DNA from: Tachypleus tridentatus
Taxonomy: Eukaryota > Arthropoda > Merostomata > Xiphosura > Limulidae
Assembly: GCF_004210375.1 (NCBI RefSeq)
Contig: NW_027467782.1
Span: 19,757,276-19,821,275 of the forward strand
Direction of reading: 5' to 3'
Length of the DNA: 64,000 bases
In this document: in pieces, positions 5,978-53,583 of the stretch
How the letters are laid out: each line of letters begins with the position of its first letter
Numbering within the stretch: position 1 is the first letter of the stretch
Position numbers and translations under genes: made by a program
The notes under the pieces: generated by a model
Told to the model about the DNA's origin: nothing
Database searches by the model: none
Seen by the model: only the letters and a program-made list of their open reading frames with translations

Positions 5978-6477
5978 NNNNNNNNNNNNNNNNNNNNNNN
6001 NNNNNNNNNNNNNNNNNNNNNNNNNNNNNNNNNNNNNNNNNNNNNNNNNNNNNNNNNNNNNNNNNNNNNNNNNNNNNNNNNNNNNNNNNNNNNNNNNNNN
6101 NNNNNNNNNNNNNNNNNNNNNNNNNNNNNNNNNNNNNNNNNNNNNNNNNNNNNNNNNNNNNNNNNNNNNNNNNNNNNNNNNNNNNNNNNNNNNNNNNNNN
6201 NNNNNNNNNNNNNNNNNNNNNNNNNNNNNNNNNNNNNNNNNNNNNNNNNNNNNNNNNNNNNNNNNNNNNNNNNNNNNNNNNNNNNNNNNNNNNNNNNNNN
6301 NNNNNNNNNNNNNNNNNNNNNNNNNNNNNNNNNNNNNNNNNNNNNNNNNNNNNNNNNNNNNNNNNNNNNNNNNNNNNNNNNNNNNNNNNNNNNNNNNNNN
6401 NNNNNNNNNNNNNNNNNNNNNNNNNNNNNNNNNNNNNNNNNNNNNNNNNNNNNNNNNNNNNNNNNNNNNNNNNNNNN
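5978..6477. other. Assembly gap of exactly 500 N
   Basis: A run of exactly 500 N, the kind of fixed-size spacer placed by scaffolders rather than a measured gap. ATR coding sequence lies on its left and telomere-like repeat on its right. Open frames that cross it are meaningless. Confidence 0.98.
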
Positions 6478-9400
6478 GGCCTGAGCCCTGGCCTGGCCTG
6501 AGCCCTGAGCCCTGGCCCTGGCCTGAGCCTGGCCTGGCCTGAGCCTGGCCTGAGCCTGGCCTGAGCCCTGAGCCTGAGCCTGAGCCTGGCCTGGGCCTGG
6601 CCTGGCCTGAGCCTGGCCTGGGCCTGGCCTGCCTGGCCTGGCCTGGCCTGGCCTGAGCCCTGGCCTGGCCTGAGCCTGGCCTGGCCTGCCTGAGCCTGGC
6701 CTGGCCTGAGCCTGGCCTGGCCTGGCCTGAGCCTGGCCCTGAGCCTGGCCTGGCCAGCTGAGCCTGACCTGACCCTGAGCCTGGCCTGGCCCTGGCCTGA
6801 CCTGGCCTGGCCTGACCTGAGCCTGTGAGCCTGGCCTGGCCTGAGCCTGGCCTGGCCTGGCCTGAGCCTGGCCTGAGCCTGCCTGGGCCCTGGCCCTGGC
6901 CTGGCCTGACCTGGCCTGGCTGGCCTGAGCCTGGCCTGGCCTGGCCTGGCCTGGCCCTGGCCTGGCCTGGCCTGGCCTGGCCTGGCCTGAGCCTGGCCTG
7001 GCCTGGCCTGGCCTGGCCCTGGCCTGGCCTGAGCCCTGGCCTGGCCTGAGCCTGAGCCCTGGCCTGGCCTGAGCCTGGCCTGGCCTGACCTGGCCTGACC
7101 TGACCTGAGCCTGGCCTGGCCCTGAGCCTGAGCCTGAGCCTGGCCTGAGCCCTGGCCTGGCCTGGCCTGGCCTGGCCTGGCCTGAGCCTGGCCTGGCCTG
7201 TTCCTGGCCTGAGCCCTGGCCTGAGCCTGGCCTGACCTGGCCTGAGCCTGGCCCTGGCCTGGCCTGAGCCTGGCCTGGCCTGAGCCTGAGCCTGGCCTGA
7301 CCTGAGCCTGGCCTGAGCCCTGAGCCTGAGCCCTGGCCTGGCCTGGCCTGGCCTGAGCCTGGCCTGAGCCTGGCCTGGCCCTGGCCTGAGCCTGGCCTGA
7401 GCCCTGACCTGGCCTGAGCCCTGGCCTGGCCTGGCCCTGAGCCTGAGCCCTGGCCTGAGCCTGGCCCTGGCCTGGCCTGGCCCTGAGCCTGGCCTGGCCT
7501 GGCCTGGCCTGGCCTGAGCCTGGCCTGGCCCTGGCCTGGCCTGGCCTGAGCCTGAGCCTGAGCCTGGCCTGGCCTGGCCTGGGCCTGACCTGAGCCTGGC
7601 CTGGCCTGGCCTGGCCTGACCTGCCTGGCCTGGCCTGAGCCTGGCCTGACCTGAGCCTGAGCCTGGCCTGGCCTGGCCTGGCCTGGGCCTGACCTGGCCT
7701 GAGCCTGGCCTGGCCTGAGCCTGGCCTGAGCCTGGCCTGGCCTGAGCCTGGCCTGGCCTGAGCCTGGCCTGAGCCTGGCCTGGCCTGGCCTGACCTGAGC
7801 CTGGCCTGGCCTGAGCCCTGGCCTGGCCTGGCCTGACCTGGCCTGAGCCTGGCCTGAGCCTGAGCCTGAGCCTGAGCCTGGCCTGACTGGCCTGAGCCTG
7901 AGCCTGAGCCTGACCTGGCCTGGCCTGTTGCCTGGCCTGGCCTGGCCTGGCCTGGCCTGGCCTGAGCCTGGCCTGGCCTGAGCCTGGCCTGAGCCTGGCC
8001 TGGCCTGGCCCTGAGCCTGGCCTGGGCCTGAGCCTGGCCTGGCCTGAGCCTGGCCTGAGCCTGAGGCCTGGCCCTGCCTGGCGGGCCTGGCCTGGCCTGG
8101 CCCTGAGCCTGGCCCTGACCTGGCCCTGAGCCTGGCCTGGCCTGGCCTGGCCTGAGCCTGGCCTGGCCCTGGCCTGGCCTGACCTGGCCTGAGCCTGGCC
8201 TGAGCCTGGCCTGCCTGAGCCTGGCCTGACCTGAGCCTGGCCTGAGCCTGGCCTGGCCTGGCCTGCCCTGGCCCTGGCCTGAGCCCTGGCCCTGGCCTGA
8301 GCCTGGCCTGAGCCTGGCCTGGCCTGAGCCTGGCCTGAGCCTGAGGCCTGAGCCTGAGCCTGGCCTGAGCCTGAGCCTGGCCTGGCCTGAGCCTGGCCTG
8401 AGCCCTGAGCCTGGCCTGAGGCCTGGCCTGAGCCCTGAGCCTGGCCTGGCCCTGGCCTGAGCCTGGCCTGGCCTGGCCTGGCCTGAGCCTGGCCTGAGCC
8501 TGGGTTACTGAGCCTGAGCCTGGGGCCTGAGCCTGGCCTGAGCCTGGCCTGAGCCTGGCCCTGGCCTGAGCCTGGCCTGAGCCTGGCCTGAGCCTGGCCT
8601 GACCTGGCCTGGCCTGGCCTGACTGACCTGGCCTGGCCTGGCCCTGAGCCTGAGCCTGGCCTGAGCCTGGCCTGAGCCTGAGCCTGGCCTGGCCCTGGCC
8701 TGAGGCCTGAGGCCTGGCCTGACGGCCTGGCCTGGCCTGGCCTGGGCCTGAGCCTGGCCTGGCCTGACCTGAGCCTGGCCTGGCCTGAGGCCTGGCCTGA
8801 GCCTGGCCCTGACCCTGGCCTGAGCCTGGCCTGAGCCCTGAGCCTGAGCCTGGCCTGGCCTGGCCTGAGCCTGGCCTGAGCCTGAAGCCTGGCCTGGCCT
8901 GAGCCTGGCCCTGACCTGGCCCTGGCCTGACCTGAGCCTGGCCTGGCCCTGGCCTGGCCTGAGCCTGAGCCCTGGCCTGGCCTGAGCCCTGGCCTGGCCT
9001 GAGCCTGGCCTGACCTGAGCCTGGCCTGGCCTGGCCCTGTTGCCTGGCCTGGCCTGGCCTGTTTACTGGCCTGGCCCTGGCCTGGGCCTGAGCCTGGCCT
9101 GGCCTGAGCCTGGCCTGGGCCTGGCCTGGCCTGGCCTGAGCCTGGCCCTGGCCTGGCCTGTTACAGACCTGGCCTGACCTGGCCTGGCCTGGGCCTGAGC
9201 TGGCCCTGAGCCTGGCCTGACCCTGAGCTCGGCCTGAGCCTGGCCTGGCCTGAGCCTGGCCACAGGCCCTGGCCTGAGCCTGGCCTGAGCCTGAGCCCTG
9301 AGCCTGGCCTGAGCCTGAGCCTGAGCCTGGCCTGAGCCCTGGCCTGAGCCTGACCTGAGCCCTGGCCTGGCCCTGAGCCTGGCCTGAGCCTGGCCTGGCC

Positions 9401-11300
9401 TGAGCCTGAGCCTGACCTGGCCTGAGCCTGAGCCTGGCCCTGGCCTGAGCCTGAGCCCTGGCCTGGCCTGAGCCTGGCCTGGCCTGGCCTGCCCTGAGCC
9501 TGACCCTGGCCTGAGCCTGAGCCTGACCAGCCCTGAGCTGGCCTGAGCCTGGCCTGACCTGGCCTGAGCCTGAGGCCCTGGCCTGACCTGGCCTGAGCCT
9601 GATGCCTGAGCCTGAGCCTGGCCTGGCCTGAGCCTGAGCCCTGAGCCTGGCCTGAGCCCTGAGCCTGAGCCTGGCCTGAGCCCTGGCCTGAGCCTGCTCA
9701 GGCCCTGGCCTGGCCTGGCCTGGCCTGAGCCCTGGCCTGACCTGGCCTGGCCTGGCCTGGCTGAGCCTGGCCTGAGCCTGGCCTGCCTGTGGCCTGAGCC
9801 TGGCCTGGCCTGAGCCTGAGCCTGGCCTGAGCCTGGCCTGAGCCTGAGCCTGGCCTGAGCCTGGCCTGGCCCTGGCCTGACCTGACCTGGCCTGGCCTGG
9901 CCTGGCCTGACCTGAGCCCTGGCCTGTAGCCCTGACCTGGGTACGGGTACCGGGGCCACGGTGCCTGACGCCTGGCCTGGCCCTGGCCTGGGTTTTTGCC
10001 CTGACTCTGGCCTGGGCCGGTGCCTGAGGTGCTGAGCCTGGCCTGGCCTGAAGCTGACCTGGCCTCGCCCTGGCCTGAGCCTGGCCTGGCCTGACCTGGC
10101 CTGGCCTGGCCTGGCCTGGCCTGAGCCCTGGCCTGGGCCTGAGCCTGGCCTGAGGCCTGAGCCTGGCCTGGCCCTGGCCTGCCTGGCCTGGCCTGGCCTG
10201 GCCTGACCTGGCCTGAGCCTGAGCCTGGCCCTGAGGCCTGGCCCTGGCCTGGCCTGGCCTGAGCCTGGCCTGAGCCTGGCCCTGGCCTGGCCCTGGCCCT
10301 GGCCTGGCCTGACCCTGGGCCTGAGCCTGGCCCTGGCCTGAGCCTGGCCCTGAGGCCTGAGCCCTGGCCTGGCCTGACCTGAGCCTGAGCCTGGCCTGGC
10401 CTGGCCTGGCCTGAGCCCTGAGCCCTGAGCCTGGCCTGAGCCCTGAGCCTGGCCCTGGCCTGAGCCTGGGCCTGGCCTGGCCTGGGCCTCTGAGCCCTGA
10501 GCCCTGAGGCCTGGCCTGGCCTGGCCTGAGCCTGAGCCTGGCCTGGCCTGACCTGAGCCTGAGCCTGGCCCTGGCCTGAGACCTGAGCCCTGAGCCCTGG
10601 GCCTGAGCCCTGGGCCCTGGGCCTGACCTGGCCTGGCCCTGGAGGCTCAGGCCTGACCTGGCCTGGCCTGACCTGAGCCCTGGCCCTGGCCCTGACCTGG
10701 CCTAATGAGCCTGGCCTGAGCCCTGGCCTGAGCCTGGCCCTGAGCCTGGCCCTGGCCTGGCCTGGCCCTGGCCTGGCCTGACCTGGCCTGGCCTGGCCTG
10801 GCCTGGCCTGTTTCTGGGGCCTCACTGAGCCTGGCCCTGAAGCCCCTGAAGCCTGGCCTGGCCTGGCCTGGGCCTGACTCAGGCCTGAGCCTGGGCCTGG
10901 GCCCTGACCTGGCCTGGCCTGAGGCTGCCAGCCTGGCCTGGCCTGGCCTGGCCTGGCCTGAGCCCCTGGCCCCTGGCCTGGCCTGAGCCTGACCTGACCT
11001 GGCCCTGAGCCTGGCCTGAGCCTGGCCTGGCCTGGGCCTGGAGCCTGACCTGGGCCCTGGCCTGGCCTGGCCTGGCCCTGGCCCCTGGCCTGAGCCTGGC
11101 CTGACCTGGCCTGTGGCCTGGCCTGGCCTGGCCTGGGCCTGGGCCTGGCCTGGCCTGGCCTGGCCTGGCCTGACTGGCCTGGCCTGGCCCTGGCCTGGCC
11201 TGACAGGCCCTGGCCCTGGCCTCAGCCCTGGCCTGGCCTATTTTCAGCCTGAGGCCTGGCTATAGACCTGGCCTGGCCTGGCCTGGCCTGGCCTGGCCTG
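6478..11300. repeat. CCTGG/CCTGAG array, telomere-like, left half
   Basis: About 4.8 kb made almost only of CCTGG (5-mer) and CCTGAG (6-mer), with CCTGA and CCCTGG variants. CCTGG differs from the arthropod telomere unit CCTAA by two A-to-G transitions and CCTGA by one. It abuts a second block derived from CCTAA by the opposite type of change. Long open frames rich in R, P, G, Q and A on the minus strand (for example 9063-9959 and 9698-10825) are by-products of a repeat free of stops. A few less regular patches occur, such as 9935-10035. I favour a nanopore-type miscall of the C-rich telomere strand; a true satellite is the alternative. Confidence 0.8.
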
Positions 11301-14300
11301 TTAATCCTAATTTAATTCTAATTTAATTTAATTTAATTTAATTTAATCTAATTTAATTCTAATTCTAATTTAATTTAATTTAATTTAATTCTAATTTAAT
11401 TTAAATCTAATTAATTTAATTCTAATTTAATTTAATTTAATTTAATTCTAATTTAATTTCTAATTTAATAATTTAATTTAATTTAATTCTAATTCTAATT
11501 TAATTAATTTAATCTAATTTAATTTAATTCAATTCTAATTTAATTCTAATCCTAATTCTAATTTAATTCTAATTTTCTAATTTAACTAATAATTTAATTC
11601 TAATTTAATTTAATTTAATTCTAATTCTAATTCTAATCTAATTCTAATTCTAATTCTAATTCTAATTCTAATTCTAAATCTTAATTCTAATTTAATTCTA
11701 ATTCTAATTTAATTCTAATTCTAATTTAATTCTAATTCTAATTTAATCTAATTCTAATCTAATCCTAATTTAATTCTAATTCTAATTCTAATCTAATAAT
11801 CCTTAAATTCTAATTAATTCTAATCTCTAATTTAATCTAATTTAATTTAATTCTAATTTAATTCTAATTTAATTCTAATTTAATTTAATCTAATCTAATT
11901 TAATCTAATTTAATTTAATCTCTAATTTAATCTAATTTAATTTAATTTAATTCTAATTTAATTCTAATTCTAATTTAATTTAATTCTAATCCTAATTCTA
12001 ATTTAATTCTAATTAATTTAATTCTAATTTAATTCTAATCTAATTTAATTTAATTTAATTTAATTTAATTAATTTAATTAATTAATTCTAATTCTAATTT
12101 AATCCTAATTCTAATTTAATCTAATAATTTAATTCTAATCTCTAATTCTAATTCTTCTAATTTAATTCTAATTCTAATTAATTTAATAATTTAATTCTAA
12201 TTCTAATTCTAATTCTAATTTAATCTAATTCTAATTTAATTTAATTAATTTAAATTCTAATTTAAAATTTAATTTAATTAACTCTAATTTAATTTAATCT
12301 AATTCTAATCTAATTCTAATTCTAATTAATTTAATCTTAATTTAATTAACTAATTTAATTAATAATTTAATTTAATCTAATAATTCTAATCCTTTAATTC
12401 TAATTTAAAATTTAATTTAATTCTAATTTAATTCTAATTTAATTCTAATTTAATTCTCTAATCTCTAATTTAATTTAAAATTCTAATTCTAATCTAATTC
12501 TAATTTAATTCTAATTCTAATTTAATTTAATTTAATCTCTAATTTAATTTAATTTAATTCTAATTTAATTCTAATTCTAATTTAATTTAATTTAATCTTA
12601 ATAATTTAATTTATTTAATTTAATTCTAATTTAATTTAATTCTAATTCTAATTTAATTCTAATTCTAATCTAATAATTTAATTTAATTTAATTCTAATTT
12701 AATTTAATCCTAATTCTAATCTAATTAATTAATTCTAATTTAATCTAATTTAATTAATTTAATAATTCTAATTAATTTAATTTCTAATTTAATTCTAATT
12801 AATCTAATTCTAATCTAATTAATTCTAATTCTAATCTTAATTCTAATTTAATTCTAATTTAATTTAATTCTAATCTAATTTAATTCTAATTTAATTTAAT
12901 TAAATTTAATTCTAATTCTAATTTAATTTAAATTTAATCTCTAATTTAATTCTAATAATCTAATTCTAATTCTAATTCTAATCTCTAATTCTAATCTCTA
13001 ATTTAATTTAATTAATAATTAATCTAATTTAATTTAATTCTAATTTAATTCTAATTTAATTCTAATCTAATTTAATTCTAATTTAATAATCTAATTTAAT
13101 CTAATAATTTAATTTAATTAATAATCTAATTCTAATTCTCTAATTCTAATTCTAATTCTAATCTAATCTAATCTAATCTAATTTAACTCTAATTTAATTC
13201 TAATTTAATTTAATTCTAATTCTAATTCTAATTCTAATTTAATTAATTTAATCTCTAATTTAATCTAATTTAAATTTAATCTAATTTAATTTAATTAATT
13301 AAATTCTAATCTAATTTAAATTAATTAATAATTTAATCTAATTTAATTTAATCTAATTTAATTTAATCTAATTTAATTCTAATCTAAATCTAATTTAATT
13401 TAATTTAATCTCTAATTCTAATTTAATTTAATCTAATTTAATTCTAATTTAATTTAATTAACTAATTCTAATTCTAATTTAATTCTAATCTAATTTAATC
13501 TAACTAATTAATCTCTAATCTAATTTAATCTCTAATTTAATTCTAATCTAATTAATCTTAATTCTAATTTAATCTAATCTCTAATTTAATTAATTCTAAT
13601 TTAAATAATCTTAATTTAATTTAATTCTAATTCTAATTTAATTTAATTCTAAATCTAATTCTAATCTCTAATTAATAATCTAATTTAATTCTAATTAATT
13701 AATTTCTAAATTCTAATTTAATTCTAATTCTAATTAATCTTAATTTAATTCTAATTTAATTCTAATTTAATTTAATTTAAATTTAATCTAATTCTAATTT
13801 AATTTAAAATTTAATTTAATCTCTAATTTAATCTCTAATTCTAACTTAATTTAATTTAATTTAATTCTAATTTAATCTCTAATTCTAATTTAATCTAATC
13901 TTAATTCTAATTCTAATTCTAATTCTTTAATTTAATCTCTAATTTAATTCTAATAAATCTAATAATCTTTAATTTAATTTAATTTAATTCTAATCTAATC
14001 TAACTTAATTTAATTTAATTAATTTAATTTAATTTAATTTAATTCTAATTTAATTCTAATTAAAATCTAATTTAATCCTAATCTAATTTAATTCTAATCT
14101 CTAATCTAATTCTAATTCTAATTAATTCTAATTTAATCTAATCTAAATTAATCTAATTTAATTTAACTCTAATTAACCTAAAATCTCTCTTAATTTAATT
14201 TAATTCTAATCTTTAATCCTAATTTAATCTAATTTAATAATCTAATTCTAATTTAATCTCTAATTTTAATTAATTTAATCTAATTTAATCTTAATCTAAT

Positions 14301-16148
14301 CTAATCTTAACTTAAATTTAAATCTAATTCTAACTTAACTTAATAATTCCTAATTTAATTCTAATCTAATCTAATCTAATCTAAAATCCTAATCTCTAAT
14401 TCTAATCTAATTTAATTCTAATTAATCTAATCTAACTAATTTAATCCTAATTTAATTAAATTTAAATCTCTAATCTAATCCTAATTTAATTCTAATTTAA
14501 TCTTAATCTCTAATTAATTTCTAATTCTAATTAATAATTAAATCCTAACTAATCCTAATTTAATCTCTAATTCTAATCAATTTAATCTAATAAATTAATT
14601 TAATAATTTAAATTCTAATTCTAATTTAATTTAATTTAATTTAATTAAATTTAAATCTAATAACTCTAATTTAATCCTAATCTAAATTTAAATCTAAACC
14701 TTAATTTAACTCTAATCTTAATTTAATTCTAATTTAAAATAATCCTAATTTAATTTAATCTAAATTAATAATTCTAATTTAATCCTAATTTAAAATCCTA
14801 ATCTAATTAACTAATTTTAATCTAACTAATCTCTAATTCTAATTTAATCTCTAATCCTAATTTAATCTAATCTAATTTAATTTAATCTAATTTAATCTCT
14901 AATTAATCCTAATTCCTAATTTAAATTTAATAATTCTAATCTAATTTAATTTAATCTAATTTAATTTTAATCCTAATTCTAATCTCTAAAATCTCTAATT
15001 TAAATTTAATCCTAACTCTAATCTAATAATCCTAATTCTAATTTAATCTCTAATTCTTAATTTAAATTTAATCTCTAATCTAATCTAAATTCTAATCTAA
15101 TTCTAATCTAATCTAATTAATTCTAATTCTAATTCTAAATTTAATTCTAATCTTAATTCTAAATCCTAATTTAATTTAACTTAAATCTCTAATTTAAATT
15201 TAATTTAATCCTAATCTAATCTAATCTTAACTCCTAAATCTAATCTTAATCTAATTCTAATCCTAATCTTCCTAATTTAATCTCTAATCTTAAATTCTAA
15301 TTAATTCTAAATCCTAATCTCTAATCCTAATTTAATTTAATTTAATTTAATCTAATCTAAATTCTAATCCTAACTCTAACTTAATCTCTAATCTAAATCC
15401 TAATTCTAATTTAATTTAATCTCTCTAATCTAACTAATTTAAATTTAATTTAATTTAATCTAATTTAAATTCTAATCTTAATTTAATTTAATTAATTTAA
15501 TTTAAAATTTAATTTAATCTAATTAATTCTAATTTAATCTAATCCTAATCTTAATTTAATTTAATTTAATCTAATTTAATTTAAAATTCTTAAATCTAAT
15601 TCTAATCTTAATTTAATTCTAATCTAATCTAATTTAATTTAATTTAACTCTAATCTTAACTTAATCCTAATTCTAATCTAATCCTAATCTAATCTTAAAT
15701 CTAATCTCTAATCTAATCTCTAACCTAATCTCTAATCTTAAATTCTAATTTAAACTTAACTTAATTCTATCTAAAATTTAATCTCTAATCTAACTCCTAA
15801 CTTAACTAAATTTAATCTAATCTTAACTTTTAACCTAATTTAATCTAATCCTAATCTAAATTTAATCCTAAATCTAATTCTAATCTTAATCTAATTCCTA
15901 ATCTCTAATTAACTAATTCTTAATCTAATCTAACTTAATTAATTCTAATCTAATCTAAAATCTAACTCTAATCTAACCTAATTCTAATTCTAATCTAATC
16001 TCTAATTTAAATCCTAATCTAACCTAATCTTAAATCTAACTAATCTAATTTTAATCCTAATTTAACCTTAAATCCTAATTTAACCTAATCTTAACTTAAA
16101 TCCTAATTTAACCTAAATTCTAACCTAATCCTCTAACTCCTAAATCCT
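11301..16148. repeat. TTTAA/TTCTAA array, telomere-like, right half
   Basis: About 4.8 kb of TTTAA, TCTAA and TTCTAA units with almost no G. TTTAA is CCTAA with two C-to-T changes; read on the other strand it is TTAAA in place of TTAGG. The mix changes along the block: almost pure TTTAA and TTCTAA near 11300, growing CTCTAA and CCTAA content after about 14000, and mainly CCTAA by 16080. This graded return to the canonical unit ties the whole block to the telomere. Confidence 0.8.
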
Positions 16149-16228
16149 AAAACCTAACCTAACCCTAACCTAATCTAAACCTAACCTAACCTAACTAACC
16201 TAATTCTAACCTAACCTAACCTTACCTA
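16149..16228. repeat. Canonical CCTAA telomere repeat at the subtelomere border
   Basis: Runs of 'cctaacctaacctaac' with a few CCCTAA and CTAA variants stand here, directly followed by ordinary AT-rich unique sequence at about 16229. The C-rich strand reads left to right, which is the orientation expected at the left end of a chromosome. TTAGG is the ancestral telomere unit of arthropods. Confidence 0.85.
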
Positions 16229-19200
16229 CTGAAATATAAGCAAACCTGGCTACATTGGAATCTGAATCCACTGAGTAATTTCCAGAATTGGAGACGTAAT
16301 AAAAATGTTTTTTATCTATTTAGCGTAATGTAAAACTTATATTTTATTTACCTTTATAATAATAAATAATACACATGAAAACCATAAATATAGTAGTTAA
16401 ATGGGTATCTTTATCAACTCTCAATTAAAACTATCTATTATTATAATGGTATTACTTCGCGAAATGATTGTTCGTTAATCAAAAATATAACAAAGAATAC
16501 AAAATAACATGCTAAAAGCACACATTGCCCTAGGACTATACAAATTTTCAGTCTTTCTTACTATTTAATAAACCCAATAAAAATTTAGCTAAACTTGCCC
16601 ATGTGTTTCCTGTTGGAATAACATTTACAGTGGAAGCAAAATAGACAAACTGCTATACAGAAAACAATATAACATAATATGCAGTGTGTTAGATTAAATA
16701 TTTGGATTTCTATTGGTTATAAGTAATATAGTTTTCAATATCAATAATAAATATTGAAAACTTGTGAAAGAGAAAATGTAATGTGTGGTGTGGCTAAAGG
16801 ACTTGATTTTCTAGTTTATCACTCTGTAATCAAATAAGATTGTAGGCCATAAAAATTATACTTTGTCTGAGTAATAACTGTATTATAATGAGCAACTTAT
16901 GTTAAATTTTGTACTTCTTGTAGATGTGGTAAATAAATAAGAAAAGGGGAAATACTAAAAGGTAAAACAACACAATTTGAAACAATGGAAAATTGAAGAC
17001 ATTTTAAATGTTGTCTTATAAAACTAGCAAATTAAAACTTTCCAAATTTGTATTACAAGCTAAGTTTTGTTACCAAGTTTATATTCCATGATAATAAAAG
17101 TAATTTAATTAAATTTTGAATATAAGTCAGTAAACTCTCATGACATGCCTCTATCAATATAATTAATGTAAATATGAAAGAACGAAAGCCCAAACACTGA
17201 CTCTCAGGAACTCCACAAATAACAAGGATGCAGTTTAAATAAGGCACTCAAGTGATCAATGTTTCTCTGAAAGTTTAAATAGTCTGAAACCAGGTACTAT
17301 ACATGTAAGCAATAAATATGTAAAAAGCCACTTATCACATAAGTATTTAATTTATATACTGAACTTTCAGAAAAACATGTCATTCATATACTGGTTGACT
17401 TGCCAACCCTTTATCTTTATTTATTATTACTTTCACTTTCATTTCTTTTGTATATTATCTAATATTTCCAGCTGTTATTTCATTCAGTTGATCAAAAATA
17501 ACAGTTCTTTTCCAATGTATGATACAAGTGATATAATATGGATGTTCACATAATGTAGGAATTACCTTTTTGTCCCCAACATTTTAGTTGGTCTTTTTTT
17601 TCATTCTAAATTTTAAGTTTCTTTCAGTTTGATCTATGTATATAACAAACTAAGCTAAAACTACGGCTTGTCAAAATTCCATCAGTTTTTATTTACTAGT
17701 ATTCTACAGCTTTCCTCACTACCAAAGTTGAATAAGTTGACTAAATTTCATTAAACAATGCTTATATGTCATCTTTTTTTTAACTATACATGTTCAGACA
17801 TTTTGTATTAGCCAAGAAAGATTACATACAGATATCTTGTTCCTAAAGCAAATAAAGGATCAGCATGATTGGTAGCAGGGATTCAAACCTGCAACCTGTA
17901 TATTACAAATTGAGTTCCCATGCCTGAACCACTAGTTAACATGTCAATTCTACTATTATGTGCCAAATACGCTGTTAGTATGTAAAATTATCCAAGGGAT
18001 TAGTAGGATAAAAGCTTGTAATATCTTTGCTATATTGTGAACACAAGAAGGCATAATGTTAGAAATTTAAAAGAAAAATGTCAAGATACCAGCAAAACTT
18101 GTTTTATAATTGTGATTGGTTTATGAAATGAGTTATTGTTATCACTAGTAGAGGGCAGCACTTTCTCAGATAAGGATATTTAACTACAGCCTCTAGGAAC
18201 AAATGGCACCTTGTTGGGATTTTATGTTTTAAAAAACTATTTTGATAAATTACTTTTAACCTATTTCATAGCTTTAAGCCACCCTAAATGTTACTTTAAA
18301 CTATATAACTATTCAATGTATTATATTTATTTCTAAATTCCATCTCTTTTCTCTGTATTAAGTCATCTGCATCTATTCTTCACAAATGTTAAACTGAAGA
18401 TAAAAAAGTGAAAAACAACATTCACTTATTAATAAGACAGGAATATGAAAATGTACTACAAATTAAAATATACATATGGAAAGAAATCTCATTTCCTATT
18501 CAGCCTTATTCAAAACTTAGATAATTTAAACTGAAGCAAATTACTTTCACCTGCTTTGCTTAATTATTAATAAAGACAACTTAAACTTCCAAGACTCAAT
18601 CAATAACTCAGAGTGTGGTATGTGACTAACATGGAAATTTTGGTCTATTTATATATATCACTATTCATTTTGGCTTATGTTGGTTTTTACTTACCTTAAT
18701 ATGGTAATAAATAAATGCTGGTTAAATTAAACTGCTGAATGGTACCCAAAATTTTTCAACAAATTGAATGACAAGTTACTTGAAATGTTTAAACTTTTTA
18801 AAGTTACATGAATCTAAGCAGATACTAAAAACTATAGAAATTAACTTACATTCCACTTACAAGAGTGTCCTAACATATGTTCAAAATCATGGAATCTTGT
18901 CAGATATTCACACAGATAGTGCCCAGCATGTTGAAGCTTGTTTATGTTTGTGCAGATGGTCATGGCACAACACCACTGATATAATGCAAAATTCTGCTTT
19001 ACCACATGTAAGAAAGGAGTGTATAATCCAACTTGAACTTTCAGACAGGCTGGAATCATGACTTATCTGGGTGATTACCTAAAAACACGGCATTAAAACA
19101 TTTAAACGTGAGGTACAGCTCAACACAAGTAATTGTTGATAAAAAACTTATTCTACATTTTCAAAGATTTTGCATCTCAAAAATTATATCCCAATAATAC

Positions 19201-19831
19201 CTTCATTTACTCTGAATATGTAAATGTAGATCAAAGTTATAAAATTGTAGGTTATGCTCTAATTAATATATATTAAATAGAAACTTATTTTTTCTATCTC
19301 ATTTTCTCAAAAAATATAATACTTTTTATCTGAACTAAAAAATGAAAACAAAACTACAACTACTTTTTTACCTTTAATCCACACATGAATTTTAATAGTT
19401 ACACAAAAAAACACAGCACAGAATTTGTTCACTAGCACATACTGTTACTCAGTTTTTTAAGTTTGGTGTTAAATCTTTCTTATGCAATACTTAAATAACA
19501 ATTACATACAAACAGAGACTTTGAAGAAGTTTAGTTTTTATTTTGTTGTTATTTAATATAACAACACCATAAACCTCACAACAACATAATTTGAAAAAAA
19601 AACAGACAGCTGTCAGTTAGGTTTGCACTTAGCTGAGCCAATTTTCTATTACAGTGAGCTTTAGAAAGCTCTATACAAGTCATACTTAATCACCAAACTA
19701 ATATCATATCTCTGTTACTATACACAAATGTTGAAAATTTTGTTTACAAAGAAGTTTTGCAAACAAGTTTCGATACATGAATTCAAATGTTATAAGTTTA
19801 AGACTGTGTCTTGAAATGTCAACTCTATATA
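16229..19831. other. Subtelomeric AT-rich DNA without a supported gene
   Basis: No gene can be supported in these 3.6 kb. Around 17868-17940 the minus strand has a degenerate tRNA-like piece with a T-arm (gcaggtttgaatccctgc), probably a SINE head. At about 18854-19046 the minus strand has an open stretch flanked by a possible acceptor (attccag) and donor (aat|gtaagt). It could be an exon, but I do not recognise the protein and it is too weak to call. Confidence 0.5.
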
Positions 19832-20533
19832 CAATGGAACGCCATTAAGCCGCGGACCAGTAAACCGCGAAATCGCTTAAGCCGCTGTAGCAAGTCTTGT
19901 CCCAAAATTTTGATGTATTAAATCTAGCTTTTAAAGTTTCTCACACTCTCCTTGTCTTTATAACTTCAAGGGATATTTAAAAGGATTAGCTTTAATTTGG
20001 GAAGTAAATAAAATATATTACAATAGAAATCGACCGTTAATCTACCTTATCCCTCTCTGTCAGCTTTATGGAGGCCGCCATTGTTTCCGAATCACACCTC
20101 TCCATACATTAAAGTTAATCCGCGGTAAATCCGTGAAAAAAGTGATCAATAATTAAAGTATTATTTTTAATTCGATAATCCGATACTTTTTATGGAATTG
20201 TATAAATATTGGCCACAAATCCAATAGAAATCACTTCAGTTTCTGAATTAATAGTGACCATATCATATTGACATGGCGGCCCGCATGTAACACGGGAAGA
20301 CGAAATTTTACAGGGAAAAGCGAACCATCGCAATGCATTGGTCGTTTGTATTAAAACGGCACTTGTCAATTGTATCTGAATAGTCTATACATTAATATTA
20401 TAATGATCACGCAATGGCCCGGATGAGGCTCTTCGGCGGAGCTGTTGGCGACTTCGGCTTTTCAGTCACACAGGTTTGAGCCGCGGTTAAGCAGGTTGAC
20501 CCCCAAATACCGCGGCTTAACGGCGCTCCACTG
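19832..20533. mobile_element. Tigger/pogo-like MITE, about 700 bp
   Basis: The ends are inverted repeats of about 26 bp: left 'caatggaacgccattaagcc' continuing 'gcgg', and right, read in reverse, 'cagtggagcgccgttaagcc' continuing 'gcgg'. The interior has no transposase frame and is richer in CpG than its surroundings. The CAGTGG start and long GC-rich inverted termini fit the Tigger/pogo branch of Tc1/mariner elements. The left flank ends in TA, as expected for a TA target; the right flank is CA, so the site may have mutated. A C-terminal Tigger transposase fragment lies at 34043-34705, but no direct link is shown. Confidence 0.7.
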
Positions 20534-21540
20534 CATTTCATCAAATTTTCACACACTTTACTTGTAGGATAACATTATTTTTGAATATGGATGTCTGTCC
20601 ACTGCATACAAATAAGAAAATAAAAAGAAACAGGCAAAAAACAATTACATGTTGTTATTATAATACAATATATGTATATATATGCAAGGTTTTTTAAGTG
20701 AATTTTCTGGATGCATATTCATTTCTAGTTATGTTGTTGGAATTTAATCAAAAATCTTTTAGGACAAACACTTTTAAAATTCAATTTTCATCTAAATTTG
20801 TAGCGTAAAAATCATTTTGGAAAAGCCAAGTTTAATAATATTATATGCGTTATTTTATGCTTAAGACATTTTTATTTTAAAGAAACAATACATGTGAATT
20901 AACTGCACCTCAACATTTGTTATTTCTATTTGAGTTTCAATTATGTCTGTTGTATAATTTTAAAATTTTGTTCAGAAACTAAATGTTTTGTTGAGTTCTA
21001 AGTATTTATGTGTTTGTAATTAAGCACAGATATACACAATAGGCTATCTTTGCTTTACCCACCATGCCTATCAGAACACAGAACCAATTTTCTAGCATTA
21101 AAAGTCCACAGACTGTGCTGCTGGTAATGGTGCAAGAATTCTAAGAAATCTGTTAAGAAGTGGAAAACATAGATAACTAATTCAAACTTTCCAAATAGGG
21201 TGTTATAAAATCATTCTGCTCTTAACAAGTGCATAAAAGGGATAACTGCTTGAAAATGTGATAAGTATTCATAATACCAATACTGCTATAAGAATATTAT
21301 TACAAGTTACACCTTTTACAGCAAGAAGGAATATTTTAAAAACAAGTACAATGTTTCTGTCACTCATGCAATCATTCTCAAGAACAAAAGTTTAATGATA
21401 GCAGCAAATGTTTTAATGTTCAGCAAATAGCAGACAGTATTTCCAATCAGGAGTGTCTACCTTAAATTAAGGTCATGGTGGGATGGACTGACCAGTGAAT
21501 ACAGCAATGTTATCCAAGGATAAATATGAAAAATTATTTT
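20534..21540. other. AT-rich DNA, nothing recognised
   Basis: About 1 kb of AT-rich sequence between the MITE and a dead non-LTR retrotransposon. I see no coding frame, RNA gene or repeat in it. Confidence 0.5.
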
Positions 21541-22340
21541 GATTTTATAACAGTCTATAGCTGCCGTTCAATATACCTCATGCTCGATGACTTATGTGAG
21601 AAATGAAAGTCATCGACATAGAGCCCATTTCTAATAGTGAGAAAGAGTTGTTCAGTGATGGCATTAATTTTATTCTGAAAAGTGTGAAACTCAGAGCACA
21701 GCCCTGACGAACTCATTGTTGAACCCACACAAACTTGGAATCGCCTGTCCATTAAAAAATTGTTTAATAAAATGGAAAATGGCCACATAACCCATATATA
21801 TGGAGGTCTTGCAAAAGGCCATACTTCCATATTGTATCATAAGCCTTCTCAATGTCAAAGAATATTGGTACAAGATGTTGTCATTTGAGAAAGGCTTCTG
21901 ATTGACATTTCAAGTCGAATCAAGCAGAACACGGTGGAGTGCTGTCGCCGGAATCCACACTGGGTTGGTGAAAGGAGGTTGTTTGAATCGAGGAACCAAA
22001 CAAGACAAGCATTAACCATCCTCTCTGAGGTCTTACAGAGACGGCTCATCAAAGCAATTGGATGGTAGTTTGAAAGAATCGTGGATCCTTCCCAAGCTTA
22101 GAGAAAGGTAGGACAATAGCCTGAACTAGGCATCAGGAAAACATTTTCCTGCCAGATCCAGTTAAAAATAATCATAAGAACAGCAAGAACAACCAGTAGA
22201 TAGATGGTGCAGCATGTCATAGTGTATATCATCAGGTCCAACCAATGTACTGTCAGACTAATGAAGGGCCAGTTTCAGTTCCACCAGTGTAAAGGGACGA
22301 TTATAGTTATGGAGACAATCACCTTGAAAGGAAAGAGGTG
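21541..22340 (-). pseudogene. Reverse transcriptase of a non-LTR retrotransposon (Jockey-like), decayed
   Basis: Read on the minus strand, pieces in shifting frames give RPFTLVELKLAL, NYHPIALMSRLCKTSERMVN, LSPTQCGFRRQHSTV, a YGLLQDLHIYGLCG-like stretch, DRRFQVCVGSTMSSSG and GLYVDDFHFSHKSSS. They follow the usual order of non-LTR reverse transcriptases: the YRPI-L block, the LSPxQCGFR block, the fingers/palm segment, the DRxFxVxVG block, and the catalytic xxDD box, here YVDD. Several frameshifts and stops make it non-functional. It continues directly from the endonuclease fragment at 22503-22911, so both come from one inserted element. Confidence 0.8.
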
Positions 22341-22502
22341 ATTGCTCTGCCCAAGTCTTGATGGTAGAGGAACAAACAGAAGTGCTAAATACCCAGCAAA
22401 AGCTTTAACCTAGAGTATCAGTTACTTCTTGGCCATCAGACAACAAGATCGAGAGGAGGACAGAATTATATTGACTTTTCAAATGGTCAGTATCTCTCAA
22501 GA

Positions 22503-22911
22503 TTATTGAAAATCATCACTGCCTTGTGGATTATTGTCAACCCTCCATGAAAATTGGGAGAATAATGAAGGGGAGCAAATTGAAATTTCAATAGCAGTAA
22601 AGGACTGACTAGGTGCATGAAAATAAGTAGAAGAACCAGTATTGAAAAGAGAAAGGTTGTGATCAGAGAGCTTACGCTCTACAGAGCGACCCCTCCTATC
22701 AATATCAGCGCTTCCCAGAGGGCAGCTGGTCAATGAGAGAATCAAGGTCCAATTGATCATAGGTTTCTCCAGACAACAGGTAGAGAGAACAAATAGTGAT
22801 GGGACAACCCAAGTAAACACGGATCGCCACGGCCACCAAGGGTGTGTCGCATGGCAAAGAAAGGGTGGGCACATGCCAATCAACCAACAGTGCTATCCAT
22901 GAACTTGTCAC
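22503..22911 (-). pseudogene. Apurinic-like endonuclease domain of the same non-LTR element, decayed
   Basis: The minus strand gives ITICSLYLLSGE and YDQLDLDSLIDQLPS in one frame, then GSADIDRRGRSVERKLSDHN, LSLFNTGSSTYFHAPSQS and ISICSPSLFSQFSWRVDNN in another. This is the order expected for the exonuclease-endonuclease-phosphatase domain that nicks target DNA in Jockey-type elements. The segment that normally carries GDFNxH before WGS is missing at the frame change, so a catalytic block is lost. It lies just upstream of the reverse-transcriptase part. Confidence 0.75.
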
Positions 22912-24283
22912 TAAATAAAGTTATGACCTTAGGTCAGTACACATGAATACAAGTTAGAAGATGATATGCTTCTATTGAAGAACAAATAGCCTTTCAAACA
23001 GTTTCAAAACTTAATTTCCAAAACTGTATGAATCCAATGCATACCTGTTCTTCCTATGGTTTCATGGAGTGTGTACTGCTCTTCAGGAACTGCATAAGAG
23101 CTGGACTTGATGGCATAAATGTTTCTTAAAAAATGAAAAGTATTCTTAATGTAAGAAAACCACTTTCATACTGAAGTATATTCTAAGGTTTGCTTTGACT
23201 TTTCTTGAGCAATAGTGAAACGATCACATTAAACATTTTTAATGGTTAAAAAAAGGCAAATGACAATCTAATTGTATGTGAAATAATTTTAAAATATTAT
23301 AATAATTTAACATAATATCTTATAACACTTGAATACACAAAAACTTTTCAAAGTCAGAATTCATTTCATCTTCATTTAGAAACTGTGAAAGCAAAAGAGC
23401 ACATTTATATTAAACCAGAAATTAAGTCTAAACATATTACAAGCTCAATCTGTTTTATAAATAAAATACTATTAGCATGCCAAAAAAGTTCCTCAGAGCA
23501 GTAAATTTGCAAATTAATACAAAGTAATTCCTTTGAGTCTCAACAGAAACAAGAACCATAACTTAAAGTTTCAAATTACAGGAATAGATCTACAGTTTAA
23601 ATTTTACAAACAGCAAAATAATTTTTTTGTTATTTCAGTGATACTGGGAACAATAAAATGTGTGTTATACAGCATTACATTTTTCTAATGATGTATGTAC
23701 ACCCAGTACCAATGTGGAAATTACAAGGACATGTGGGGTCCCAACTGTTGCACCATAAGGAAATGTTTTGCAACACCGTTGGGTAAATCCCCTTGTAGCA
23801 CCAAACAGATTTAAATGTCAAGTCAGATAAATCCAATGATAGTATCCAAAGAGTTTTTAAAAATCCCATTTGCTAGAGTATAGAAAGGTTGGATGAGAGA
23901 AAGCAAAATATTGTTATTAATGGACTTGCAAACAATCTGTACTCTAGTTAAGGTCACTTCATTTTCTGTTACAATCCTGTTCTTATTGTGTAAGAAAGGA
24001 TAGTATTTATTCAAAAGTATTCAAAGAGCTACAAGGATTACTTCATGAATGGAAGGATTGAATCATAGGAATGGGTTAATCATACAGTCTAAGTTCAGTT
24101 GAAGTGCACCTTATAAGTTATGTTCAAAATTGAACTGAAATTTATTATTCATGCATGTTAATAACCTAGACATTAAAGCATATTTATAATTAAAAGTTTT
24201 ATATTATCTGATGTTCATGATTTAATTTGTTAGGTATGCAGCTTTGTGCTCAGCAGAAAACAAAGTAACATTTTTATTACTTG
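22912..24283. other. AT-rich DNA with one possible exon
   Basis: Apart from the small candidate exon at 23045-23124, I see no supportable gene. Open frames on the minus strand at about 23675-24014 lack family similarity that I recognise. Confidence 0.45.
23045..23124 (-). CDS. Candidate internal exon, unrecognised
   Basis: On the minus strand, 80 bp lie between a T-rich acceptor (cattttttaag) and a strong donor (aacag|gtatgc). Only one frame is open, giving NIYAIKSSSYAVPEEQYTLH and then ETIGRT. I do not recognise a family. The evidence is splice-site fit and open frame alone, so it may be chance. No partner exon is secure nearby. Confidence 0.25.
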
Positions 24284-24420
24284 ATAAATATAATTACCAA
24301 AAATAGAGAAAGTTGTTATCTCTATTTGCAATTATTTTATTATTATAGTGACAATTGATTTAGTCATAGTTTTGATTAGACTGCATAATCCTAGTCAATG
24401 TAAACACTGCCTGAAGGTTT

Positions 24421-24541
24421 GTGTGTGTTTCTTATAGCAAAGCCACAAAGGGCTATCTGCTCAAATCACCAAGGGGAATCAAACCCCTGATTTTAGCGCT
24501 ATAAATCCAGAGACATACCGCTGTACTAGCAGGGGGCTGCC
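24421..24541 (-). mobile_element. tRNA-derived SINE, family B (first duplicate)
   Basis: On the minus strand: tRNA-like head 'ctgctagtacagcggtatg', B-box block 'ggtttgattcc', body 'gagcagatagccctttgtgg', then 'ctttgctataagaaacacac'. It matches the family B layout found at 53453-53572. Confidence 0.85.
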
Positions 24542-24690
24542 TGAAGGTAACCAATAAATATAATTACCAAAAATAGAGAAAGTTGTTATCTCTATTTGCA
24601 ATTATTTTATTATTATAGTGACAATTGATTTAGTCATAGTTTTGATTAGACTGCATAATCCTAGTCAATGTAAACACTGCCTGAAGGTTT

Positions 24691-24811
24691 GTGTGTGTTT
24701 CTTATAGCAAAGCCACAAAGGGCTATCTGCTCAGATCACCAAGGGGAATCAAACCCCTGATTTTAGCGTTATAAATCCAGAGACATACCGCTGTACTAGC
24801 AGGGAGCTGCC
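24691..24811 (-). mobile_element. tRNA-derived SINE, family B (second duplicate)
   Basis: Same element as the copy 270 bp to the left, carried by the tandem duplication rather than inserted independently. Confidence 0.85.
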
Positions 24812-25086
24812 TGAAGGTAACCAATTACATTTTGCAGTTCTGAACAGTTCTCTCATGCAAGTAGCAGTAAAATACATGCTACAATAGCGTGAAGAGAGAA
24901 TCTTCAAGTCATTTCGACGTAGACCACAAATTATTTGTAGCCACTGGAAAAGGTTATATTTAATAAACAAGCAATACTGTCATCATAAACTGAGACAAAT
25001 ACCCTAATAATACAATACTTTTTATACGTATGATGTAACGTAGGTTTTTCCATACCTACTCAAAGTTTAAGAAATCCATTTAATTC

Positions 25087-25262
25087 TGACCTAACCTAAC
25101 CTAACCTAACCTAACCTAACCTAACCTAAACCTAACCTAACCTGACCTGACCTGACCTAAACCTAAACCTGACCTGACCTGACCTAACCCTAACCTAAAC
25201 CTAAACCTAAACCTAAACCTTACCCTAACCTAACCTAAACCTAACCTAACCTAAACCTAACC
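25087..25262. repeat. Interstitial telomere tract (CCTAA with CCTGA variants)
   Basis: About 175 bp of CCTAA, CCTAAA and CCTGA units, with C-strand orientation matching the terminal block at 6478-16228. It lies about 9 kb inside that block. Three- and four-unit runs of CCTGA are interspersed with CCTAAA. It ends directly against a sequence beginning 'cccactgcaatgtgggtcc' that occurs again at 26064. Confidence 0.9.
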
Positions 25263-27499: not shown

Positions 27500-29392
27500 G
27501 CAAATCGATGATAAGAGTTAAGCTATGTTTTTAATATGATAAGATGATAAGAGTTAAGCTATGTTTTTAATATGATAAAATGATAAGAGTTAAGCTATGT
27601 TTTAATATGATAAGATGATAAGAGTTAAGCTATGTTTTAAGATGATAAGAGTTAAGCTATGTTTTTAAGATAATAAGAGTTAAGCTATGTTTTAAGATGA
27701 TAAGATGATAAGAGTTAAGCTATGTTTTTAATATGATAAGATGATAAGAGTTAAGCTATGTTTTAATATGATAAAATGATAAGAGTTAAGCTATGTTTTT
27801 AATATGATAAGATGATAAGAGTTGAGCTATGTTTTAAGATGATAAGATGATAAGAGTTAAGCTATGTTTTTAATATGATAAGATGATAAGAGTTAAGCTA
27901 TGTTTTTAATATGATAAAATGATAAGAGTTAAGCTATGTTTTTAATATGATAAGATGATAAGAGTTGAGCTATGTTTTAAGATGATAAGATGATAAGAGT
28001 TAAGCTATGTTTTTAAGATGATAAGAGTTAAGCTATGTTTTAAGATAATAAGAGTTAAGCTATGTTTTTAAGATGATAAGATGATAAGAGTTAAGCTATG
28101 TTTTAATATGATAAGATGATAAGAGTTAAGCTATGTTTTTAAAATGATAAGATGATAAGAGTTAAGCTATGTTTTTAAGATAAGATCATAAGAGTTAAGC
28201 TATGTTTTTAAGATGATAAGATGATAAGAGTTAAGCTATGTTTTAAAAAATGATAAGAGTTAAGCTATGTTTTAAGATGATAAGAGTTAAGCTATGTTTT
28301 TAAGATAATAAGAGTTAAGCTATGTTTTTAAGATGATAAGAGTTAAGCTATGTTTTTAAAATGATAAGATGATAAGAGTTAAGCTATGTTTTTAAAATGA
28401 TAAGATGATAAGAGTTAAGCTATGTTTTAAAGATGATAAGATGATAAGAGTTAAGCTATGTTTTTAAGATGATAAGAGTTAAGCTATGTTTTTAAGATGA
28501 TAAGATGACAAGAGTTAAGCTATGTTTTTAATATGATAAAATGATAAGAGTTAAGCTATGTTTTTAATATGATAAGATGATAAGAGTTAAGCTATGTTTT
28601 AATATGATAAGATGATAAGAGTTAAGCTATGTTTTTAATATGATAAGATGATAAGAGTTAAGCTATGTTTTTAATATGATAAAATGACAAGAGTTAAGCT
28701 ATGTTTTTAATATGATAAGATGATAAGAGTTAAGCTATGTTTTTAATATGATAAGATGATAAGAGTTAAGCTATGTTTTTAATATGATAAAATGACAAGA
28801 GTTAAGCTATGTTTTTAATATGATAAGATGATAAGAGTTAAGCTATGTTTTTAAGATGATAATATGATAAGAGTTAAGCTATGTTTTAATATGATAAGAT
28901 GATAAGAGTTAAGCTATGTTTTAAGATGATAAGAGTTAAGCTATGTTTTTAAGATGATAAGATGATAAGAGTTAAGCTATGTTTTTAATATGATAAGATG
29001 ATAAGAGTTAATCTATGTTTTTAAAATGATAAGATGATAAGAGTTAAGCTATGTTTTAAGATGATAAGAGTTAAGGTACGTTTTTAAGATGATAAGAGTT
29101 AAGCTATGTTTTTAAGATGATAAGATGATAAGAGTTAAGCTATGTTTTAATATGATAAGATGATAAGAGTTAAGCTATGTTTTTAAAATGGTAAGATGAT
29201 AAGAGTTAAGCTATGTTTTTAATATGATAAGAGTTAAGCTACGTTTTTAAAATGATAAGAGTTAAGCTACGTTTTTAAGATGATAAGAGTTAAGCTATGT
29301 TTTTAAGATGATAAGAGCTAAGCTATGTTTTTAAGATGATAAGAGTTAAGCTATGTTTTAAGATGATAAGAGTTAAGCTATGTTTTAATAGC
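27500..29392. repeat. 1.9-kb minisatellite with core ATAAGAGTTAAGCTATG
   Basis: A conserved core 'ataagagttaagctatgttt' recurs every 26-37 bp, separated by variable spacers made of 'taagatgat' and 'taatatgat'. I estimate 55 to 60 units. Only rare substitutions occur in the core (for example 'ttgagc', 'ctacg'). The array ends inside a SINE fragment at about 29392. Confidence 0.92.
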
Positions 29393-38055: not shown

Positions 38056-38325
38056 GTCCTGGCCTGGCTCGGTGGTTAAGGCGCTCGACCCATAATCTGA
38101 GGATCGTGGGTTCGAATCTCCGTCACACCAAATATGCTCGCCCTTTCAGCATCGGGGGCGAAATAATGTGACGGTCAATCTCACTATTCGTTGGTAAAAG
38201 AGTAGCTCAAGAGTTGGCGGTGGGTGGTGATGACTAGCTGCCTTCCCTTTAGTCTTGCACTGCTAAATTAGGGACGGCTAGCGCAGATAGCCCTCGTGTA
38301 GCTTTGCGCGAAATTAAACAAAATG
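38056..38325 (+). mobile_element. tRNA-derived SINE, family A, full length
   Basis: This is the most complete copy in the window. Its tRNA head has an A box (tggctcggtggttaaggcgc) and a B box (gggttcgaatctccgtcaca). The body is 'tcgccctttcagcatcgggg', 'cactattcgttggtaaaaga', 'gttggcggtgggtggtgatg', 'actagctgccttccctttag', 'ctgctaaattagggacggct' and 'agctttgcgcgaaatt'. Pol III transcription from the internal A and B boxes is expected. The mariner remnant begins directly after its tail. Confidence 0.92.
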
Positions 38326-39545: not shown

Positions 39546-39873
39546 AATATATATTTCAATTCTTCAACAGTTACCATTAGAATGTGAAACACTTATATGA
39601 AGAAAAATAAAAATGCAGCGACCTATTGGCTAAATAACATATTCTTAAGTTTTATGTTACTATTATCAACAAAAGGAAAATTATGGCTCTATAAATTCAA
39701 CACTTTTGGGTTAACTCAAATAATCACAAACAAACCTTTTGCACGTGTTTATCCAGAGATGGCGCTTACCGACAACATAGGTTATATAATGAATCTTGAG
39801 CAATGCGAGTGACTGAGTTTCACTGAGCATTACACGGATAGTGTAGCACTGCTAACGATAAAACGTAGTCACC
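39546..39873. other. Upstream region of the GRHPR-like gene
   Basis: This stretch lies between the mariner remnant and the reductase ATG. It has no recognisable TATA box at a convincing distance. A 71-codon frame (39597-39812) is not recognised. Confidence 0.4.
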
Positions 39874-40981
39874 ATGACAAAATACAAAGTTTTTGTTACT
39901 AGGCCTGACATATCGCAGGAAGTGAACGACATGTTGAGGAAGGTATGTGATGTTGAATTTTATAAAGAACCCAAAACAATACCACGTGAGGCGCTTATTA
40001 AGGGTATTCAGGGAAAGGATATTATTTACTGTTCAACAACAGATATAATCGACAGTGAAGTACTTGATGCAGCTGGACAGCAACTTAAAGTAATCGCGAC
40101 CAATTCTGTCGGGTACGACCATATTGATATTGATGAATGCAGGAAACGCGACATCCTAGTAAGTAATACACCAGGGATACCAACTGATAGCGTTGCCGAA
40201 TTAACAGTTGCTCTTATGCTGATAACTGGGAGACGACTGTTTGAAGCTTCAAACGCTATAAAAAATGGAGAGTGGGTACATATGTGGGAGCCTTATTGGA
40301 TGTGTGGTGTAGGACTTAAAAATGCCACTGTGGGCATCGTGGGCATGGGAAAAATCGGTCAGGCTGTTGCCGAAAGAATTTTATCATTTAAGGTCAATAA
40401 AGTTGTCTACCATGATATACACAAACCTGTTGATGCTGTAGAAAGTATGGGAGCCCGCTTTGTAGAATTTGAAGATCTTCTGAGGGAGTCGGACTTCGTT
40501 CTGTGTACGTGCAATCTGACAGATAAAACAACAGAACTGTTTACTGCTAAGCAGTTTAACCTGATGAAATCTACTGCTATATTTATCAACACGAGCAGAG
40601 GAAAAGTCGTCCAACATGATGATTTATACGATGCCTTAAAACATGGAAAGATCCGTGCTGCTGGTTTGGATGTCATGGTTCCTGAACCGATACCAAAAGA
40701 TCACAGACTCACCACTCTTGGTCCTTCTACCCCACATAGGAACTGCAGAAGTAACAGTTAGACAAAATATGGCTAAACTCGCGGCAAGAAACGTCTTGTC
40801 GTATTGCGATGGGAAAGGTTTGATAACACCGATCCCAGAGTTAAAAGATGTTCAACACAAGGTGGATATAAAAAAACTAGACTCACTCCAAATAGTTACG
40901 TCAAGTTTGGATAAGAATGTAAGACGGTTTCTGTATTATTATTTTAATAGCAAAAATACTGCCTCTCTAAATAAGAGTTGA
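39874..40981 (+). CDS. GRHPR: Glyoxylate/hydroxypyruvate reductase-like dehydrogenase, intronless, one frameshift
   Basis: This is a D-2-hydroxyacid dehydrogenase of the GRHPR branch, which reduces glyoxylate and hydroxypyruvate with NAD(P)H. ATG 39874 (preceded by tagtcacc) opens 282 clean codons: TNSVGYDHIDIDECRKRDIL with NTPG at 98-101, the dinucleotide motif GIVGMGKIGQAVAERI (GxGxxG at 157-162), the substrate arginine in INTSRGKV (R242), and the VPEP glutamate (E271). The frame then shifts at about 40718-40721. Reading on one base later restores VLLPHIGTAEVTVRQNMAKL with the catalytic histidine (40733-40735) and a tail to TGA at 40979-40981. Compared with relatives, two or three residues seem missing at the shift, so a small real deletion is possible. 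The lack of introns suggests a retrocopy, though no poly(A) tract or target repeats are evident. Confidence 0.85.
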
Positions 40982-42762: not shown

Positions 42763-43028
42763 TTTGTTTTGGAATTTCGCACAAAGCTACTCGAGGGCTA
42801 TCTGTGCTAGCCGTCCCTAATTTAGCAATGTAAGACTAGAGGGAAGGCAGCTAGTCATCACCACCCACCGCCAACTCTTGGGCTACTCTTTTACCAACGA
42901 ATAGTGGGATTGACCGCCACATTATGCGCCCCCACGGCTGGGAGAGCGAACATATTTAGCGCGACGCGGGCGCGAACCCGCGACCCTCGCATTACGAGTC
43001 GCACGCCTTACGCGCTTGGCCATGCCAA
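42763..43028 (-). mobile_element. tRNA-derived SINE, family A, full length
   Basis: In minus orientation it has tRNA head, 'gctctcccagccgtgggggc', 'cactattcgttggtaaaaga' and the tail 'gctttgtgcgaaattcc'. The head region is CpG-rich (gcgacgcgggcgcgaacccg). All blocks of the family are present. Confidence 0.9.
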
Positions 43029-43189: not shown

Positions 43190-43425
43190 CCCAATTCGCA
43201 ATGTGCGGGTCGTGGGTCCGATTCTTTCTCACTGAACCCGCTCACTCTTTCAGCCGTGGGAGTGTTATAATATAATGGTTAACCCTTTATTCGTTGGTAA
43301 AGAGTAGTCCAAGAGTTAGAGGCGGGAGGTGTTGAATAGCTGCTTTCTCCCTAGTTCATCATTGCTATATTAAGATCGGTTAATCCAAATAGCTCTTGTG
43401 TAGCTTGGCGCGAAATTCAGAACAA
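43190..43425 (+). mobile_element. SINE family A, strongly diverged copy
   Basis: The blocks 'ctttattcgttggtaaagag', 'tagtccaagagttagaggcg' and 'tagcttggcgcgaaattcag' are recognisable. The head (gtcgtgggtccgattctttc) is mutated. It is older than the neighbouring copies. Confidence 0.75.
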
Positions 43426-44714: not shown

Positions 44715-44832
44715 TGTGTGTGTTCTTATAGCAAGCTACATCGGGCTAGCTGCTGAGCCCACCGTAGAGAATCGAACCTCTGATTTTATCGTTGTAAATC
44801 CGTAGACGTACCGCAGAACTAGCGGGGGGCTA
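44715..44832 (-). mobile_element. tRNA-derived SINE, family B
   Basis: The minus strand has head 'ccccgctagttctgcggtac', T-arm 'gaggttcgattctctacggt', and tail 'gctcagcagctagcccgatg' followed by CA repeats. Confidence 0.85.
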
Positions 44833-48262: not shown

Positions 48263-48270
48263 GGATAAAT

Positions 48271-53572: not shown

Positions 53573-53583
53573 GTAATCGCTTA

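Follow-up and report, generated by a model that had tools for sequence, protein, structure and literature searches.

The window analysed here, 64,000 nucleotides of AT-rich DNA from Tachypleus tridentatus, contains two adjoining tandem arrays built from different pentamers, the second of which gives way to CCTAA beside unique DNA. The locus raises the question of whether these arrays are genuine repeats or a single telomere that was read in two different ways. TTAGG is the arthropod telomere motif (PMC8977481), and both pentamers can be derived from its complement, CCTAA, by one type of base change each. The evidence set out below makes it very probable that a TTAGG telomere was miscalled by nanopore sequencing into two strand-specific false repeats, which were then joined in the assembly.

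Organization and base composition of the array

Two gaps of 500 N each, at 5978-6477 and 45257-45756, delimit a contig of 38,779 bases (6478-45256), whose pentamer array starts at the very first base. On the forward strand, a 4.8-kb array of CCTGG and CCTGAG units (6478-11300, the outer half) meets a 4.8-kb array of TTTAA, TTCTAA and TCTAA units (11301-16143, the inner half) at a sharp border at 11300, and a near-canonical CCTAA telomeric repeat (16151-16228) follows next to the unique DNA. TRF called CCTGG and GGCCTGAGCCT at 6478-11300, TTAATTCTAAT at 11301-16065 and AACCT at 16151-16228. The run (CCTAA)3 is found nine times on the forward strand, once at 16180 and eight times between 25090 and 25240, while (CCTGG)3 and (TTTAA)3 are found there 93 and 31 times; none of the three is present on the reverse strand. 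All of these runs therefore share one orientation, which places the chromosome tip to the left. A CCTAA/TTAGG array that ends in unique DNA, the hallmark of a TTAGG-type telomere, is present at 16151-16228. Since the gap at 5978-6477 lies directly outside the array, the array forms a contig end; its CCTAA part is correctly oriented at the border with unique DNA, yet the whole lies inside the scaffold. The order of CCTGG/CCTGAG, TTTAA/TTCTAA, CCTAA and unique DNA had been given in a preliminary description and is confirmed by the sequence and by TRF; the adjoining gap, which marks the contig end, and the gradient in the inner half were absent from it.

Base changes were counted by wraparound alignment to CCTAA, with the seven bases at 16144-16150 excluded from the counts. 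In the outer half, the two C positions are kept in 97.1% and 97.2% of the units (n = 887 each) and read T in 0.6% and 2.3%, and the two A positions read G in 66.9% (n = 888) and 89.0% (n = 887). The 433 bases inserted in this half are chiefly G (303) and C (117). In the inner half, the A positions are kept in 98.0% and 98.3% of the units (n = 922 each) and never read G, the C positions read T in 71.1% (n = 921) and 46.2% (n = 922), and the 415 inserted bases are chiefly T (372). G is absent from all 4,843 bases of the inner half, and TTTGG from both halves. On the opposite strand, the inner changes amount to TTAGG becoming TTAAA or TTAGAA. Intact CCTAA occurs once in the outer half and 53 times in the inner half, where 47 of the 53 copies lie at or beyond 14077, and the six-base variants account for 183 units (CCTGAG) and 169 units (TTCTAA). 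With spectra that complement each other in this way, no letter of CCTAA is lost from both halves; the spectra match the earlier claim that CCTGG is CCTAA with A-to-G changes and TTTAA is CCTAA with C-to-T changes. Read by strand, the consensus has A for G on the G-rich strand and G for A on the C-rich strand, the pair of changes that defines the known nanopore error.

The changes are also distributed unevenly along the array. When the inner half is divided into ten bins, the outermost bin has 0.54 C per unit and the innermost 1.21, with little change across the outer five (Spearman 0.22 over 895 units, p about 1e-11). Because the inner half contains no G, this gradient is unlikely to stem from admixed CCTGG-type reads; it may instead reflect miscalling that increases with the depth of a read into the repeat. 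In the outer half, the number of A per unit shows no trend with position (832 units, p 0.92), and irregular bases are more frequent near the border (19, 2, 4, 7, 15, 34, 24, 61, 24 and 62 per 482-base bin, from the outside in).

Higher-order structure was assessed against 200 local shuffles, in which units were permuted within blocks of 80, and 200 global shuffles. The longest repeated block of units measures 53 bp in the outer half and 48 bp in the inner half, lengths reached by 48% and 16% of the local shuffles, respectively. Global shuffles reached them in 40.5% of cases for the outer half and in 0 of 200 for the inner half, an excess that we put down to the gradient. Across lags of 1-200, the highest z is 2.9 in the outer half and 3.0 in the inner half, and at lag 1 adjacent units of the outer half are less similar than shuffled ones (z -3.1). 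Neither half contained higher-order repeats or shared variant blocks beyond those of local shuffles. A satellite shaped by unequal exchange would be expected to show more structure, so the array does not have the organization expected of one.

A short interstitial CCTAA/CCTGA array of 174 bp in the same orientation (25089-25262) provides a control within the contig. None of its 66 C positions is changed, and neither (CCTGG)3 nor (TTTAA)3 is present within it. One of its positions reads G for A in 6 of 32 units, arranged as two runs of CCTGA, and the array is consequently not an unchanged control for that class. The 8.9-kb stretch at 16229-25088 is thus flanked by two like-oriented CCTAA arrays (16151-16228 and 25089-25262) and is possibly an inserted or subtelomeric segment; the two frames scanned from it gave no Pfam match.

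Origin of the two halves

An indication of the type of reads behind this assembly comes from a pair of inverted arms elsewhere in the window (47921-54273 and 57351-64000), which are 99.3% identical by blastn, are separated by a spacer of ~3 kb and extend to the window end. Their alignment shows 9 substitutions, 34 short indels (1-2 bases) and one indel of 315 bases, the latter a stretch (61989-62303) present in one arm only. Changes in the length of homopolymer runs of 2-7 account for 29 of the short indels; among the others are 2 short tandem changes and 3 indels that belong to neither class. Homopolymer indels far in excess of substitutions are typical of nanopore consensus and not of ordinary divergence. 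The arms themselves may stem from a genuine inverted duplication of recent date or have been produced during assembly. A search of 6478-16300 with two adapter oligos in both orientations yielded no nanopore adapter remnants: each oligo was compared with 100 shuffled versions and scored inside their range.

The two repeat sequences, their complementary spectra, the gradient and the contig end can be read directly from the DNA, and from them we infer that the array comes from nanopore reads, which strand each half represents and that the halves were joined during assembly. The stretch 6478-16228 would be the left telomere of the contig, (CCTAA)n/(TTAGG)n, with a nanopore consensus misread differently for each strand. 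Reads of the C-rich strand, beginning at the chromosome tip, would have been called CCTGG and CCTGAG and would predominate in the outer half. Reads of the G-rich strand, entering from unique DNA, would have been called TTAAA and TTAGAA (TTTAA and TTCTAA on the forward strand) and would dominate the inner half, with more G called A the deeper such a read extends into the repeat. Because C-strand reads would start at the tip and G-strand reads would end there, early termination of reads could leave relatively more C-strand coverage in the outer part. A toy simulation of read truncation was run 300 times at each of eight settings, and every run gave relatively more outer C-strand coverage, a direction that is largely built into the assumptions of the simulation; the majority actually flipped in only 10-92% of runs, depending on the setting. 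The simulation fits the order of the halves without accounting for the exact join. The telomere would either measure about 9 kb, with a change of consensus strand midway, or measure about 4.5 kb and appear twice; the two halves are nearly equal in size, at about 887 and 922 units, which hints at the second case. Finally, the scaffolder may have placed the tip-bearing contig (6478-45256) inside the scaffold. The position of this contig beside a gap suggests a scaffolding mis-join, which for a contig of 38.8 kb is the simplest reading, the alternative being a real internal telomere.

The preliminary description had proposed a 5-mer version of the nanopore artefact left in an assembly, and this proposal gains support from the spectra, the published 6-mer errors, the gradient and the indels of the inverted arms. 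The argument for miscalling is that the change types segregate between the halves, that no structure exceeds local shuffles, that the inner half is graded and that the arms carry homopolymer indels. Several observations sit less comfortably with it. The reading does not account for the step that would join consensus of opposite strands, and the majority flips in only part (10-92%) of the simulation runs; the longest repeated block of the inner half exceeds that of all 200 global shuffles; nor does the reading account for the negative z at lag 1 in the outer half, where irregular bases also increase near the border; the control array at 25089-25262 has its own A-to-G change in 6 of 32 units; and among published cases, budding yeast shows no such errors, Caenorhabditis elegans shows a different one (PMC9414165), and comparable double-monomer arrays of Chenopodium have been defended with FISH (PMC10521516).

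The blocks could alternatively be real, either as derivative telomere monomers arranged in blocks, as claimed for Chenopodium, or as two telomere-derived satellites. The FISH and fiber-FISH case for double-monomer telomeres (PMC10521516) and the inner half's excess over global unit shuffles speak for such blocks, which we nevertheless regard as improbable: substitutions within each half are almost of a single class, structure past local shuffles is lacking, and, as would be expected of forms confined to one strand, the authors of that study state that the Chenopodium nanopore libraries never gave an array of derivatives only. A more specific form is decidedly improbable: in it, the telomere would truly consist of two derivative blocks, the outer with A-to-G and the inner with C-to-T changes, both having arisen through strand-specific changes in the C-rich strand, along the lines argued by the Chenopodium authors. 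A fold-back chimeric read, made of a template plus its complement, would set the two strands of the tip in succession, with a G-strand call next to a C-strand call; the outer half should then read CCAGG on the forward strand, but it reads CCTGG. With (CCAGG)3 found nowhere on the forward strand of the window, this candidate is contradicted by orientation, provided that the outer half represents C-strand calls, and we give it very little credence. Strand-biased deamination of the C-rich strand, of cytosine in the inner half and of adenine in the outer half, is scarcely credible. C-to-T and A-to-G are both formally deaminations of the forward strand, but two different activities would be needed on either side of a sharp border at 11300, the array at 25089-25262 is free of C-to-T changes, and unit lengths are altered as well (the 183 CCTGAG and 169 TTCTAA units), which goes beyond what deamination does. 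Deamination and two satellites derived from the telomere were the biological alternatives first offered for this array.

Other features of the window

Outside the telomeric array, the window contains two long tandem arrays, with units of 36 bp (27507-29232) and 30 bp (56019-57195), and two dispersed repeats. Copies of a repeat of ~250 bases, about 80-86% identical in most of the listed pairs, lie in both orientations at 38071-38323, 42762-43026, 47995-48249, 53589-53859, 55331-55552, 57762-58030 and 63671-63923, with a weaker copy near 43207-43432. A second repeat, of about 110-125 bases and 79-87% identical in the listed pairs, is found at 1818-1940, 24417-24536, 24687-24804, 44723-44828, 53448-53572 and 58050-58169.

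A Pfam scan of ten chosen frames gave matches for two (DDE_1 and 2-hydroxyacid dehydrogenase) and none for the other eight. The frame at 34199-34705 matches part of the DDE_1 transposase domain (E 5.6e-10). The other is a long unbroken frame at 39862-40981 related to glyoxylate reductase/hydroxypyruvate reductase, with 2h1s and 2gcg, both of that enzyme, as its best PDB matches. By eye, its C-terminal part seems to continue in another frame from about 40700-40760, and the frame is either a retrocopy or bears a residual consensus indel. The window gave no Rfam match to an RNA gene at the gathering score, and no tRNA or tmRNA in a search with bacterial settings.

Comparison with published telomeric repeats

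In 2022, Tan et al. (PMC9414165) reported strand-specific miscalls in nanopore sequencing, with TTAGGG read as TTAAAA on one strand and CCCTAA read as CCCTGG or CTTCTT on the other, and the known miscalls cited in the preliminary description (TTAAAA and CCCTGG) are as given there. In their account, the errors occur across several data sets, platforms and base callers, are absent from HiFi reads of the same samples and are attributed to similar current profiles, given for 6-mers. The 7-mer telomere of Arabidopsis shows like errors, S. cerevisiae shows none, and C. elegans shows CTTGGG in one of two data sets; it follows from the last two species that a 5-mer telomere need not show these errors. 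The open-access literature, covered chiefly through titles and the openings of abstracts, yielded no published account of a TTAGG form, and the accessible parts of PMC12134996 and PMC8977481 contain nothing on a 5-mer error. At five bases, TTAAA and CCTGG of the present array correspond to the TTAAAA and CCCTGG of Tan et al. The array described here resembles their errors in its G-to-A changes on the G-rich strand, its A-to-G changes on the C-rich strand and its location at an apparent chromosome end, here a contig end within a scaffold. It differs in that the motif is the pentamer TTAGG and not a 6-mer or 7-mer, that the six-base variants TTCTAA and CCTGAG are intermixed, and that both forms are fixed in an assembly consensus, end to end.

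If our reading is correct, the published class of errors also affects a telomere with a 5-mer motif and is able to persist in an assembly after scaffolding. A telomere finder that relies on exact TTAGG runs would detect no more than the final 78 bases here, and a catalogue of satellites could enter two false families from the array. A concern raised earlier was that the array might be annotated as an RPGQA-rich protein; a mechanical listing of frames does yield two RPGQA-rich ones, 298 and 375 aa long, within the array. The reality of such blocks is disputed in print, and a species that has this pattern together with both nanopore and HiFi data would therefore offer a direct test.

The opposing position is that of Belyayev et al. 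(2023; PMC10521516), who described double-monomer telomeres in Chenopodium, in which TTTAGGG occurs with TTTAAAA, supported them with FISH and fiber-FISH and disputed the artefact reading. The derivative monomers of Chenopodium, TTTAAAA and (C)CCTGGG, show the same two types of change as the array described here. The blocks claimed to be real in Chenopodium alternate with the canonical monomer, whereas here the two derivatives adjoin. Its authors state that they never encountered, in their nanopore libraries, an array made up of the two derivatives alone. Errors confined to one strand would be expected to give this result in single reads; the adjacency of both forms in the present contig would require a consensus drawn from both strands.
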